Below are positions 3,992 to 21,524 of a stretch of 32,151 nucleotides of DNA, in pieces. The notes beneath the pieces are model-generated. The model was given only the letters and a program-made list of their open reading frames with translations, had not been told where the DNA came from and did not search any database. Both the position numbers and the translations under genes were made by a program. Numbering within the stretch: the stretch's first letter is position 1; every line of letters begins with the position of its first letter. The stretch is from a virus, in the IMG/VR virus record IMGVR_UViG_3300046370_000649, positions 1 through 32,151 of that record, one strand, 5' to 3'.

Positions 3992-4202
3992 CCTATTGTG
4001 CTGTTCTAAGCGTTTAGTTGTCAAATGTGACGATATGAAGCCTTTTTCATTTCAGAAGATAGATAGGCCCAAAGAGCGTACTATACGTGTACATCAAGAC
4101 GATGCAGAGTTGTTGGTAGCTTGGTCGAATGTTTATAAAGAGGGCTGGAGCTTCTACGAAGCACAGATAGATAGTTTTAACGCTTTGTATGGAGGCGAGT
4201 AG
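3960..4202 (+). CDS. Rz1-like o-spanin candidate
   Basis: 80 aa from the ATG at 3960, preceded by AAAAAGG. The start MKTVILLCVFSLLCCSK is a short signal peptide with cysteines at 8, 14 and 15. LLCC is a poor lipobox, so lipidation is uncertain. The rest is short and soluble with one more Cys. It overlaps the i-spanin gene in another frame and touches the GTG of the endolysin. An earlier in-frame ATG (3933) would add a basic segment before the signal peptide and is less likely. Confidence 0.55.
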   Translation: MKTVILLCVFSLLCCSKRLVVKCDDMKPFSFQKIDRPKERTIRVHQDDAELLVAWSNVYKEGWSFYEAQIDSFNALYGGE

Positions 4203-4708
4203 TGAGAGAAGTAAAAAAGATAATCGTACACTGTAGCGACTCGGAATTTGGAAACGCTGCTCTTATAGATAGCTGGCATAGAGAGAGAAAATGGAGATGT
4301 ATCGGGTATCATTTTGTCATCGAAAACGGACGGCCTTCAAACGCTAAAGAGTATTATGATTTTTTGGATGGAGCTATTTCTTCAGGACGGTCTATTAGTA
4401 AATCTGGATCGCATACGTATAGACACAACAAGGACTCGGTCGCTATATGTCTGATTGGGAAAAAGATATTCACGTCTAGGCAGCAACTTAAACTTTATGA
4501 TTTAATAAATACTCTTTTAGAGATGTTCCCACATGCAGATTTGGATGGACATCGTGATTATGAAAAAAAAAAGACGTGCCCAAATTTCGATGTTAAATCA
4601 TGGTATGTGGACATGAAAGATCATATGAGAAAATATAAGAGTGAATACGTGACTGTTAAAAAGAAGAAATCTTGGATGCGCTCACTTAAAGATAAGTTTC
4701 GTTCATAA
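4202..4708 (+). CDS. N-acetylmuramoyl-L-alanine amidase (endolysin)
   Basis: 168 aa, Amidase_2/T7 lysozyme type. It cleaves the amide bond between MurNAc and L-Ala in peptidoglycan. Zinc ligands expected from the family are visible: His10 (IIVHCSDS), His117 (GHRDYEKKKTC) and Cys126. Tyr36 (GYHFVI) and Lys124 match the T7 catalytic Tyr46 and Lys128. There is no signal peptide, so it needs the holin. The C-terminus is basic (residues 145-168). The GTG start overlaps the upstream stop and follows GGAGGCG. The gene order is holin, i-spanin, o-spanin, amidase, with the endolysin last and not second. Confidence 0.9.
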   Translation: MREVKKIIVHCSDSEFGNAALIDSWHRERKWRCIGYHFVIENGRPSNAKEYYDFLDGAISSGRSISKSGSHTYRHNKDSVAICLIGKKIFTSRQQLKLYDLINTLLEMFPHADLDGHRDYEKKKTCPNFDVKSWYVDMKDHMRKYKSEYVTVKKKKSWMRSLKDKFRS

Positions 4709-17458: not shown

Positions 17459-18721
17459 ATGGCAACAAATAATAGAGTGGTAGTCAATATCTCGGAAATT
17501 CCCAAGGTATTGAAGGCGGAGTCTTTGAGAACTCCTTTAATCTTATCAACTAATAAAGGGTTTACTGGGCTTGTCAAGAAGTACGGCTCTTTGTCTTCTG
17601 TAGCAGAGGATTTTAGAACTGATTCCGAAGAATACAAAGCGGCTTCTGCTATGTTCTCCCAAGAGTTAGGAGAACTTTATATCGGAAGGCGTGCGGTAAA
17701 TGAGGAAAGTGTAATAACAGTCGATACAGCTGTGAATTCAACAGTGTATGACGTTACCGTTGATGGTGTTAAGAATTCTTACACATCTTCGTCTAGTGCT
17801 ACAATAGCAGATATTGCCACAGGACTTGCTAGTGCTATCGGAAATGGTGCGAGTGCTAGCGGTGCTACTGTGACTTTAAGTGCGAGCACTATTAAGGTTG
17901 GAGATAGGCTATCTGTAGCACATACAGAAACTAACAGTGACATTACTGTAGACTTGAACGCTATCAAGGCATCTAGTAACAACTTCTATGGACTAGTCGT
18001 ATTAGATAGAACGGTAGCGGACGTTCTTAATGTTGCAGCCTGGGCAGAAGCGAATGAGAAGGTTTATTTTACTTCTACAGGTGTTGTGGATGTTGCAGAC
18101 GAAAGTAAAAACGACGATGCGGACTCTATTGCCAAACAACTTGGTGATTTAGGTTATAAAAAGACTTTTGTGTTCTTTGACCTTCATGCTTCTGAGCAGT
18201 GGATTGAGGCGGCAATCATGGGCAAATTTTTCTCATACCAAGTAGGGAGTTATAACCCTGATTTAAAGAGCTTAGTGGGTGTTAAGGCTTCTGATATTAG
18301 CGATTCTCAACGTTCAAATTTAGAGGAAAAGAATGTAGGTGTTTACAATGTAGAAGGTAATTACAGTAGGACTCATAATGTTAAATCTGTATTTGGAAAC
18401 TGGTTTGACCAGGTTCAGAACCAAGACTGGATTGTGGTACGCATCTCCGAGTCAGTTAACTCTCTAATGGATCGAGTCAAGAAAATTCCTTACACAAATA
18501 TAGGACTGGTTCAAGTTAAAAGTGCAATCGACTCAGTGCTTGCTAATGCAGTTTCTTTGGGTATTGCTTCCGATAATCCCGCCTACTCAATTACCCTCCC
18601 TTCTTTGAGTGATGTGACAGATTCTGATAAGGCAAATAGGATTCTTAACGGAGTGAAATTTTCCCTAACACTACAGGGAGCTATTAACAAGATCGTAATC
18701 GAAGGCGAAACGAAAGTATAA
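17459..18721 (+). CDS. Tail sheath protein (DUF3383 family)
   Basis: 420 aa. It has DUF3383-type features: an N-terminal strand (RVVVNISEIPKVLKAES), GSLSSVAEDFRTDSEEYKAA, an inserted Thr/Ser/Ala-rich beta domain (about 80-165), GYKKTFVFFDLHASEQWIEA, and a C-terminal AINKIVIEGETKV handshake strand. It forms the contractile outer tail. It is followed by the tube gene, so a contractile-tail virion is well supported. Confidence 0.85.
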   Translation: MATNNRVVVNISEIPKVLKAESLRTPLILSTNKGFTGLVKKYGSLSSVAEDFRTDSEEYKAASAMFSQELGELYIGRRAVNEESVITVDTAVNSTVYDVTVDGVKNSYTSSSSATIADIATGLASAIGNGASASGATVTLSASTIKVGDRLSVAHTETNSDITVDLNAIKASSNNFYGLVVLDRTVADVLNVAAWAEANEKVYFTSTGVVDVADESKNDDADSIAKQLGDLGYKKTFVFFDLHASEQWIEAAIMGKFFSYQVGSYNPDLKSLVGVKASDISDSQRSNLEEKNVGVYNVEGNYSRTHNVKSVFGNWFDQVQNQDWIVVRISESVNSLMDRVKKIPYTNIGLVQVKSAIDSVLANAVSLGIASDNPAYSITLPSLSDVTDSDKANRILNGVKFSLTLQGAINKIVIEGETKV

Positions 18722-18731
18722 GGAGTAAAAA

Positions 18732-19196
18732 ATGGCAAAAGAATTTAGTAGAAATATAAAAACACTGGCTTGCTTTTTAAATGGAATTCCAGTACCCGAT
18801 TTATTGGATGTTATTATTAAGCGTAATGATCCCGAATCATTTAAAACGACAGAGGATACGAGAGGTAATACTAATATCGAAGCGAATCATAATCGAAGCG
18901 GAACTATTACAGTTGTGATTCCTAGGGGCAGTAGTGCTAACGACTATTTATCTGGAGTTATGAATGCCCAGGAGCTTTCTGGCAAGCCTACAAAATTCCC
19001 AGTTCTTGTTGAGAATGTGGATGATGAACGTACGGCTTTTGGAGCCCAAAGTGCATTTATTAAGTCTTGGCCCGAGGAGTACAAGTTTACAGAAATGGAA
19101 GAAGCATCTTGGATGATTTATTGTAATGACCTTACTCCGTTTATGGGTGGCAGTAATGATGATACGTATGACCCTAGTGAATTTGGAGTAGGATAA
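18732..19196 (+). CDS. Tail tube protein (DUF3277 family)
   Basis: 154 aa. FSRNIKTLACFLNGIPVPD at the start and a middle GTITVVIPRGSSANDYL match DUF3277-like tube proteins found right after DUF3383 sheaths. It forms the inner rigid tube. Ribosome site AAGGAG 8 bases upstream; the stop overlaps the next ATG (TAATG). Confidence 0.8.
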   Translation: MAKEFSRNIKTLACFLNGIPVPDLLDVIIKRNDPESFKTTEDTRGNTNIEANHNRSGTITVVIPRGSSANDYLSGVMNAQELSGKPTKFPVLVENVDDERTAFGAQSAFIKSWPEEYKFTEMEEASWMIYCNDLTPFMGGSNDDTYDPSEFGVG

Positions 19197-19648
19197 TGAT
19201 TGAGGCTAAAGAATTTTTGCTTGATATTGAAGACTCCGAAAAGAAGCATAGCCTAGTAATTAAGAAGTTCCCTGCGATGAAGGCAGGGGCTTTAATGGCT
19301 AAGATTGGGAAGGTTATCGGCCCTATTGCAAAGGGAATAGATATCGGCTCGGATGGGTTTAATAAAGAGGCTATTGCGGATATTATACCCGATGTGCTAG
19401 AGCAGGTTGGAGATGAAAAGTTCTTTGAACTCGTTGGGGAGCTACTGAAAAACAGTTCTTTAAACTCCATTCCTTTAGATTCGGAAGAGAACATCGAAAG
19501 GGCTATTGGTTCAGATTTCCTTCTTCTAGTTGAGGTAGTGGCTTTGGTTTTGAAAGAGAATTTTTTTTTCAAAGGGGCCATTGGAAGGCTAACAAAAGTA
19601 CTAGGGACAAAAAAGATTCCCTCCAAAGAAGAATTGAGCGTGAACTAG
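19196..19648 (+). CDS. Tail assembly chaperone, short form
   Basis: 150 aa in the zero frame. It is mostly helical, with an N-terminal beta strand (FLLDIEDSEKKHSLVIKKF) then GALMAKIGKVIGP. The place between tube and tape measure, and a second frame reached by a -1 shift, fit the gpG/gpGT chaperone pair that guides tube assembly around the tape measure. The zero-frame stop is at 19646-19648. Confidence 0.75.
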   Translation: MIEAKEFLLDIEDSEKKHSLVIKKFPAMKAGALMAKIGKVIGPIAKGIDIGSDGFNKEAIADIIPDVLEQVGDEKFFELVGELLKNSSLNSIPLDSEENIERAIGSDFLLLVEVVALVLKENFFFKGAIGRLTKVLGTKKIPSKEELSVN

Positions 19649-19854
19649 AACGCTCCGCCAGCAGTCAGCTGCTATTCCATTCAAGATTTCTACGAGTAGT
19701 GACTGCTGGCCTTTGTTCTTATACAGAGCTTAACACATGTATACCTTTGGAAGATTTTGAGATCATGGAGGCTCATTTGGATATGAAGGATAAGGTAGAG
19801 CTTATGAAGCAAATTGAGGAAAAGAACGAACTTGAAAGAATGAAAGCTAAATGA
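19196..19854 (+). CDS. Tail assembly chaperone, -1 frameshifted long form
   Basis: 219 aa if ribosomes slip -1 at A AAA AAG (19609-19615). The -1 frame is open without interruption from 19534 to the stop at 19852-19854. The added 79 residues run from DSLQRRIERELERS to the end and include PLEDFEIMEAHLDMKDK, followed by a charged helix, which is typical of the second domain of gpGT-type chaperones. This explains the otherwise empty 200 bases before the tape measure gene, whose ATG overlaps this stop. The long form was read by hand from the sequence. Confidence 0.75.
19609..19615 (+). promoter_or_regulatory. A AAA AAG slippery site for -1 frameshift
   Basis: In the zero frame the codons are ACA AAA AAG, giving X XXY YYZ = A AAA AAG, the most efficient bacterial -1 heptamer (as in E. 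coli dnaX). A second in-phase slippery run, T TTT TTT, lies at 19561-19567 and could also be used. Confidence 0.75.
19657..19710 (+). other. 11-bp stem-loop downstream of the slippery site
   Basis: GCCAGCAGTCA (19657-19667) pairs perfectly with TGACTGCTGGC (19700-19710) around a 32-base loop. It starts 41 bases after the slippery heptamer, farther than the usual 5-9, so a direct stimulatory role is uncertain. A pseudoknot with the loop, or a role in mRNA stability, is possible. There is no clean T-run, so it is unlikely to be a terminator. Confidence 0.55.
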
Positions 19855-21524
19855 CCCTTTTAGATTATTTTATAAAAATTGCGTTTGATGTGGACGATAA
19901 GGATCTTGCTAAAGCAAGTAAATCCATCGATACGCTTAAAAGCAATGTGTCGGATAGTCTTAATAGGGTAAATCGTGGAGTAGGCCAGATAGGTCAAGGG
20001 ATATCACAAATAACCACTCCTATTAGTGCAGGTCTTGCGTTGGTGTCGGGGTTTTCTTTAAAAACATACGCCGATATTGAGCAAATAAACATGGCTTACG
20101 AGGTAATGCTTGGTAGTGTGGAAAAGGGAAAAAAACTTACCAAAGACTTAATAGACTTTGCATCAAAAACACCATTCGAGATAAAAGGTATCCAATCAAG
20201 TGCAAAACAGCTTTTAGGTATGGGCTTTGAACTGGAGGAAATTATACCTTCCCTCAAGGCAGTAGGAGATGTTTCTGCTGGTGTAGGTGCTCCACTTGAA
20301 AGGCTTATACTTAACCTTGGTCAAGTCCGCACTCGCGGAAAACTCACAGGTCAAGAACTTAGAGATTTTGCTGTGAACGGGGTTCCACTTATTGAGGAAT
20401 TAGCCAAACAGTTTGGTGTAGCCAAGGAGGAAATAGCAGGAATGGTATCCAAAGGACAGATTTCCTTTGAAGATACGATGAAAGCTTTTACCAATATGAC
20501 TTCCGAAGGTGGTAAGTTTAATAACATGATGTTCCGATTATCTGGAACTCTTGGCGGACGGTTCTCGAACTTTTTAGATAATATCACAAAGATGATGATA
20601 GATTTCGGGGAGAGCCTGGACAAAGCCTTTGATATCCGAGGAAAATTAAATAAGGCAAATGAGTTTCTCGAGAGTATTCAAAAGAAGTTTAATGACTTAT
20701 CGGATACAGAGAAGCGATTTGGTTTTGTCAAATTGGCTCTACTAGCTCTAATCCCTATTGTAACGCTTTTTGCCTCCACCTTTGGAAGTGGTCTTCTGAA
20801 AATAGGTAAGGGGATGTATAATGTGTCTAGTGGTATACTTAGGCTGGGTTTGAATATAACCAGATACCCCGTGGTTGCCTTTAAGAAATTGAGAGCCGAA
20901 GCGTTGGCAAACAAAAGGGCTATGTCTTTGTATGGAACTACAGCAAAAACTTCTATAAATCTTACAGGTATAGCCTTGAAAGGTCTTACATTTGGACTAA
21001 AGGTAGCCAAGATTGCGGCTAAATTGTTTTGGGGTGCAATGACCTTTGGTGTAGGCCTTGTAGCCTTGGAAGCAATAAGTTTGCTAATTGAGGATGTGAT
21101 TGTTTGGCTTGATGGTGGAGAGTCTGCTTTTGGAGATTTTTACCAAAAAATAGTTGATGGAGCCAAAACGGCTTTTGGATTTTTAAAAGGATTCTACACA
21201 GGAATGATAGACTTCTTTATAGGAATGATTGCAAAGCCTCTTGAAACATTGCAGAAGGTTTACAGTAAAGTAGCTGGTGTCTTAGGCTTGCCAGAGATGG
21301 GAGACATAAAAGCTTCTATAACCAGTGCTTTTGCGACACCTTCCATACCTTCTGGAATTGCTGTAGGTGGAATGGGTGGTGCTGTAATTACGAACATGGG
21401 TGGATTAACGATTAATACCGCACCTGGAACCTCTGATGAGCAAGCTAAAGAAATTATGCAGAAGGTCTCCACCAGTCTTGGACAAGAAGTAAAGCGAGTG
21501 AACAGGGTGAAAGAGAATGACTGA
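19851..21524 (+). CDS. Tail tape measure protein
   Basis: 557 aa. The N-terminal region is a helical coiled-coil with the tape-measure domain (YADIEQINMAYEVMLGS, DFASKTPFEIKGIQSS, GVGAPLERLILNLGQV, GKLTGQELRDFAVNGVPLIE). Hydrophobic segments lie at about 290-310 and 385-410 and the C-terminus is Gly-rich. At roughly 1.5 angstrom per residue this predicts a short tail of about 80-85 nm. The ATG overlaps the chaperone long-form stop. Confidence 0.93.
   Translation: MTLLDYFIKIAFDVDDKDLAKASKSIDTLKSNVSDSLNRVNRGVGQIGQGISQITTPISAGLALVSGFSLKTYADIEQINMAYEVMLGSVEKGKKLTKDLIDFASKTPFEIKGIQSSAKQLLGMGFELEEIIPSLKAVGDVSAGVGAPLERLILNLGQVRTRGKLTGQELRDFAVNGVPLIEELAKQFGVAKEEIAGMVSKGQISFEDTMKAFTNMTSEGGKFNNMMFRLSGTLGGRFSNFLDNITKMMIDFGESLDKAFDIRGKLNKANEFLESIQKKFNDLSDTEKRFGFVKLALLALIPIVTLFASTFGSGLLKIGKGMYNVSSGILRLGLNITRYPVVAFKKLRAEALANKRAMSLYGTTAKTSINLTGIALKGLTFGLKVAKIAAKLFWGAMTFGVGLVALEAISLLIEDVIVWLDGGESAFGDFYQKIVDGAKTAFGFLKGFYTGMIDFFIGMIAKPLETLQKVYSKVAGVLGLPEMGDIKASITSAFATPSIPSGIAVGGMGGAVITNMGGLTINTAPGTSDEQAKEIMQKVSTSLGQEVKRVNRVKEND

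Follow-up and report, generated by a model that had tools for sequence, protein, structure and literature searches.

The comparison of sequences gives good support for programmed −1 frameshifting in the tail assembly chaperone (TAC) gene of a contractile-tailed phage, and the best explanation, to which we assign a probability of about 75%, is that a −1 slip at a U-run of this gene yields a 219-aa fusion protein. The frameshift was supported because of the family membership of the chaperone, the gene order, the conserved −1 domain, and the codon-level selection in relatives. The window (the whole stretch of DNA analysed) was a virus record of 32,151 bases. The first-pass annotation had also proposed a −1 frameshift in the chaperone, and this part was upheld by the homology, the open frames, and the selection in relatives. 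However, its headline slip site, A AAA AAG, was probably wrong, and the conserved U-run was the likelier site. The correction moves the likely slip site from A AAA AAG to a run of nine Ts.

Gene Order and Relatives

The tail genes were arranged on the plus strand in the order of sheath, tube, chaperone, and tape measure. The tail sheath (17459–18721) belonged to DUF3383/phrog_205 (phrog_205, E = 2e-89; PF11863, E = 1e-26). It was followed by a probable tail tube or structural protein (18732–19196; phrog_280, KPP10_Orf10-like), which matched phrog_280 with E = 8e-17 and PF11681 slightly under the cutoff. The chaperone gene sits between the tail tube and tape measure genes, as in the lambda G/GT strategy. 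The tail tape measure protein (19851–21524) matched PF20155 (E = 8e-27) and phrog_9959 (E = 2e-61). It was short (557 aa) and matched the first part only of long tape measure profiles.

In direct searches of IMG/VR, the chaperone, tape measure, and terminase of the window retrieved no close relatives, and the phage records contained no close relative of the chaperone. Because the chaperone was without a close relative in the collections, homologs were gathered via the sheath protein. The sheath-linked loci were searched with an iterated profile, which gave 114 genes with the TAC N-terminal domain, including that of the window. The approximately 113 homologs adjoin DUF3383-type sheaths, and the relatives were distant, with a sheath identity of about 30%. 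In a quick look, D6E and vB_EauM-23, which have the sheath in common, showed no matching −1 extension of the window type.

The Chaperone and Its −1 Extension

The gene at 19196 (19196–19648, plus strand) would encode the short chaperone TAC-N of 150 aa. The zero-frame product was a PF21822 (Phage_TAC_15) tail assembly chaperone, with 48.7 bits against a cutoff of 22 (E = 1.4e-12), and it also matched phrog_1613 (E = 6e-11). The scan for PF21822 used the fusion protein as the query, and the match was at residues 21–125. The −1 frame was open from 19534 to 19851, between a preceding stop at 19531 and TGA at 19852–19854, which bears out the uninterrupted frame that had been reported to 19854. Across 19648–19851, the −1 frame was open in 0.4% of dinucleotide shuffles.

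The −1 frame encodes TAC-C (19570–19851, plus strand), a C-terminal domain of 94 aa, for which AlphaFold2 gave a helical fold with a mean pLDDT of 87. The extension alone matched phrog_3976 (E = 2e-5) and phrog_4364, which are families of unknown function. The chaperone-like character noted for this domain in the first-pass annotation was confirmed, as the −1 product matched the C-terminal domain of the homologous chaperones of relatives. The −1 ORFs of the relatives run 37–83 aa beyond the zero-frame stop where the contig is long enough, and most of these extensions share a common domain with the consensus ...IWRPIxAGxxTLxEVxxG...LxDLxxxNALLD.... With a profile of 92 relatives, from which the window had been left out, the window −1 domain scored 35.4 bits, which places it in the family of the −1 domains of the relatives. 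Searches of PDB sequences gave nothing convincing. In a fold search of BFVD, the −1 domain had weak matches only, the best being an uncharacterised phage protein (TM 0.71, E 0.02).

Location of the Slip Site

The nine Ts at 19561–19569 contain two zero-frame heptamers, T TTT TTT (19561–19567) and T TTT TTC (19564–19570), and a slip on either would give the identical protein, ...KENFFFQRGHW.... This run was the longest T run in the window and also the longest among the 95 homologs. It aligned with the slip element of the relatives, at the Phe-Phe position, and the T9C run (19561–19570, plus strand) is the most likely −1 frameshift site. The T TTT TTT at 19561 had been regarded as an unusual extra; the run is present, but this role does not fit, since the U-run is the conserved site of the family. 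Most homologs had a U-run or a CCCUUUN heptamer at the aligned position, and the remainder had at least U UUY. The slip elements in the homologs were TTTTTTC (31), CCCTTTG (23), TTTTTTT (16), ten other heptamers, and T TTY only (32).

The −1 frame was open from the slip element to the zero-frame stop in all 95 of the non-redundant genes (window included), compared with 41.9 expected from synonymous-codon resampling, although the related genes are not independent and the joint probability is not to be taken literally. Stops in the −1 frame were found 3–18 nt 5′ of the slip element in many genes, but never between the element and the zero-frame stop. In 19 independent close pairs, 68 of the 134 changes in the overlap fell at the −1-frame wobble position, versus 28 and 38 elsewhere. 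Upstream of the slip element, 165 of 254 control changes were at the zero-frame wobble position, and downstream of the zero-frame stop, 178 of 259 were at the −1 wobble position. This frame-specific test covers the close pairs of relatives, the window itself being without a close relative. With the family profile built without the window, the scores were 35.4 bits for the U-shift product and 27.6 bits for the A-shift product, a difference of 7.8 bits; this test is weak alone because the sequences of the profile were shifted at the U-run element. In the window, the probability that the −1 frame stays open by chance over the approximately 40 nt from the U-run to the A-run is 58%; therefore, the window alone does not decide between the two sites. 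Taken together, the openness, wobble, and profile tests point to the U-run/CCCUUUN element as the place of the frame change in the family.

In the proposed mechanism, a minority of ribosomes would slip back one base on U UUU UUU UUC (19561–19570) and read the −1 frame to 19851. The slip product would be the 219-aa fusion of TAC-N and TAC-C, with ...KENFFF followed by QRGHWKANKS.... The likeliest mode would be ribosomal −1 slippage by tRNA-Phe on U UUU UUU UUC. By analogy with lambda gpG/gpGT, TAC-N would form a coat on the tape measure, to which the rare fusion would bring the tube subunits. We infer that slippage takes place in this phage and that it is ribosomal, as well as how efficient it is and what the two products do. 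More than a quarter of the homologs are without a canonical heptamer, and the window is without a strong structure after the U-run; both observations speak against this mechanism.

The relatives that keep T TTY only, more than a quarter of the total (L003, L013, L030, L047, L114, and others; for example, GAT TTT ACC), also have the conserved −1 domain. The bare U UUY in these genes suggests that single-tRNA slippage may suffice.

Alternative Explanations

The A AAA AAG heptamer is located in the zero frame at 19609–19615 (plus strand), where it had been reported, 37 nt before the zero-frame stop, and it is a possible secondary or chance site. If slippage occurred at the U-run and also at A AAA AAG, two 219-aa fusions differing over 13 residues would be formed. 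Both heptamers precede the stop in the zero frame and lead into the same −1 ORF, but the relatives gave no sign of a matching second site, and such dual use is unlikely. A AAA AAG may nevertheless have a minor role as a second site.

The same fusion would also be obtained by ordinary translation if RNA polymerase slipped on T9 and added a U in some transcripts. With nine Ts, the run reaches the homopolymer length of a transcriptional slippage site (roughly nine A or T, or longer), and the avoidance of slippage-prone runs appears at nine in many bacterial genomes (PMC1088944). The length of the run, unmatched among the 95 homologs, also favours polymerase slippage. However, the homologs mostly have 4–7 Ts or CCCTTTG. 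The conserved or ancestral mechanism is unlikely to be transcriptional because most of the runs in the relatives are too short or not homopolymeric. Polymerase slippage as the source of the fusion is accordingly rated as quite unlikely, but it is to be taken seriously as a possible addition to ribosomal slippage in the window.

A −1 shift mainly at A AAA AAG, with the U-run idle, is less probable again. A AAA AAG is well known in bacteria as a strong slippery heptamer, it lies in the zero frame 37 nt before the stop, and a small hairpin starts 20 nt downstream. However, it was present in the overlap of none of the homologs scanned, and the conserved boundary of the relatives is the U-run. There were 10 in-frame copies in the 9495 codons of this genome, so the heptamer is not unusual, and the profile favoured the U-shift product by the 7.8 bits given above. 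Moreover, a shift at A AAA AAG would skip the −1 Trp (FQRGHW) that aligns with the common Trp of relatives. A peptide spanning KK-DSLQ, as suggested in the first-pass annotation, does not tell the sites apart because KKDSLQ is present in both the U-shift and the A-shift fusion products. Reporter or mass-spectrometry experiments directed at A AAA AAG would probably be misleading.

Finally, the absence of any frameshift, with the −1 region being an independent small gene or decayed sequence, is extremely improbable: databases do hold such C-terminal parts as separate families (DUF6889, phrog_4364), but all 95 genes keep frames that are fusible at the same place, and separate initiation would drop the first 43 of the 94 domain residues because the first ATG, GTG, or TTG in the open −1 frame is the GTG at 19699.

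RNA Structures and Other Stimulators

The perfect 11-bp stem that had been described 41 bases downstream of A AAA AAG was present, with arms at 19657–19667 and 19700–19710, starting 41 nt past A AAA AAG and 86 nt past the U-run. It was not unusual, as the window contained a single perfect inverted repeat of 11 bp (loop ≤60), versus 0.73 expected in shuffled windows. With a further 5-bp stem, it is predicted to form a stable RNA hairpin past the zero-frame stop (19657–19710, plus strand; MFE −25.6 kcal/mol, z −3.8), and this extended 16-bp hairpin ranked among the 0.1% most stable 60-nt stretches. The relatives had no conserved structure at the place of the window stem. A role of the stem as a frameshift stimulator was rejected as unsupported on account of its chance-level frequency, its distance from both sites (86 and 41 nt), and its position, which is not conserved.

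Directly 3′ of the window U-run, no strong structure was found (z +0.4), and there was a weak four-pair hairpin only. No structure was found within 20 nt of A AAA AAG, and the window had no stimulatory stem 5–10 nt past the heptamer of the kind that marks the canonical −1 PRF cassette. No stimulatory structure proved to be conserved in the family, the mean z being −1.0 after the site and −1.3 after the stop, versus −0.5 for the control. The region had no match in Rfam. No clear Shine–Dalgarno-like stimulator was found in the window, and one lay upstream in just 16 of the 95 genes.

Individual relatives carried a hairpin approximately 3–8 nt past the slip element, which was strong in L055 (z −5.8), moderate in L044 (z −2.5), and weak in L002 (z −0.9). 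In L055 (6847–6910), the hairpin has about 15 bp and starts only a few nt 3′ of the slip element, which makes it a well-placed candidate stimulator.

Comparison with Known Systems

The chaperone frameshift of lambda G/GT and its wide conservation have been reviewed (PMC5009743). Like the window, lambda encodes short and frameshift-extended chaperones (gpG/gpGT) before the tape measure protein. Lambda is a siphovirus, unlike the window, and the likeness is shown by the gene order alone. In P2-like phages, T6G, T7G, and T7C slippery sites have been described (PMC3931495). P2 gpE/gpE+E′ (T6G) resembles the window in the contractile tail, the U-run site, and a −1 extension that overlaps the next tail gene, and this likeness is one of layout and site class only.

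Related to the window are Pakpunavirus (phage Adele) and the Felix O1-like phages (Andersonviridae), which have a homologous DUF3383-type sheath. In December 2025, a poly-T (GTTTTT) −1 frameshift was proposed for their chaperone on the basis of sequence (PMC12846349), and the annotation of Moogle from 2015 already included a chaperone frameshift (PMC4319497). The sheaths of Pakpunavirus-type Pseudomonas phages and of Moogle were homologous to the window sheath. As in the window, the poly-T motif of these groups is near the end of TAC-N, and the −1 frame continues without a stop as far as the tape measure gene. The window differs from these groups, in which the motif is GTTTTT, by its T9C run, one extra Phe codon, a further A AAA AAG, and the lack of any close relative in sequence. 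Accordingly, the window chaperone is a new, divergent example of the known TAC frameshift, and a U-run site had already been proposed for related phages.

Tape Measure Overlap and the DUF6889 Families

The overlap with the tape measure gene that had been noted was found at 19851, where the ATG lies within ATGA together with the −1 stop. No clear Shine–Dalgarno sequence was found before this ATG in 19836–19854. In 34 of 90 relatives, the −1 stop and the start that follows were likewise offset by one base. Because the ATGA overlap is without a clear Shine–Dalgarno sequence and the offset recurs in these relatives, the sequence suggests that tape measure translation may be coupled to shifted ribosomes. 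A wider model, in which the T9 switch is partly transcriptional, with polymerase and ribosome slipping at one site and tape measure synthesis coupled to shifted ribosomes, seems quite improbable.

Elsewhere in the window, an A10 run was observed at 4563–4572 within the ORF at 4202–4708 (in-frame A AAA AAA, AAG). The neighbouring frames close soon after this run, and no extension product was apparent.

When the −1 extensions of L002–L119 were compared with family models, DUF6889 (PF21829) matched 20 of 61 and phrog_4364 matched 46 of 61; phrog_16972 also matched. The Pfam model PF21829 had no match in the window. No mention of DUF6889 was found in the papers searched. DUF6889/PF21829, phrog_4364, phrog_16972, and phrog_3976 look like frameshift-encoded C-terminal TAC halves of phages with DUF3383 sheaths. 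The link of DUF6889 to the frameshift-encoded half of the chaperone may be a useful annotation.
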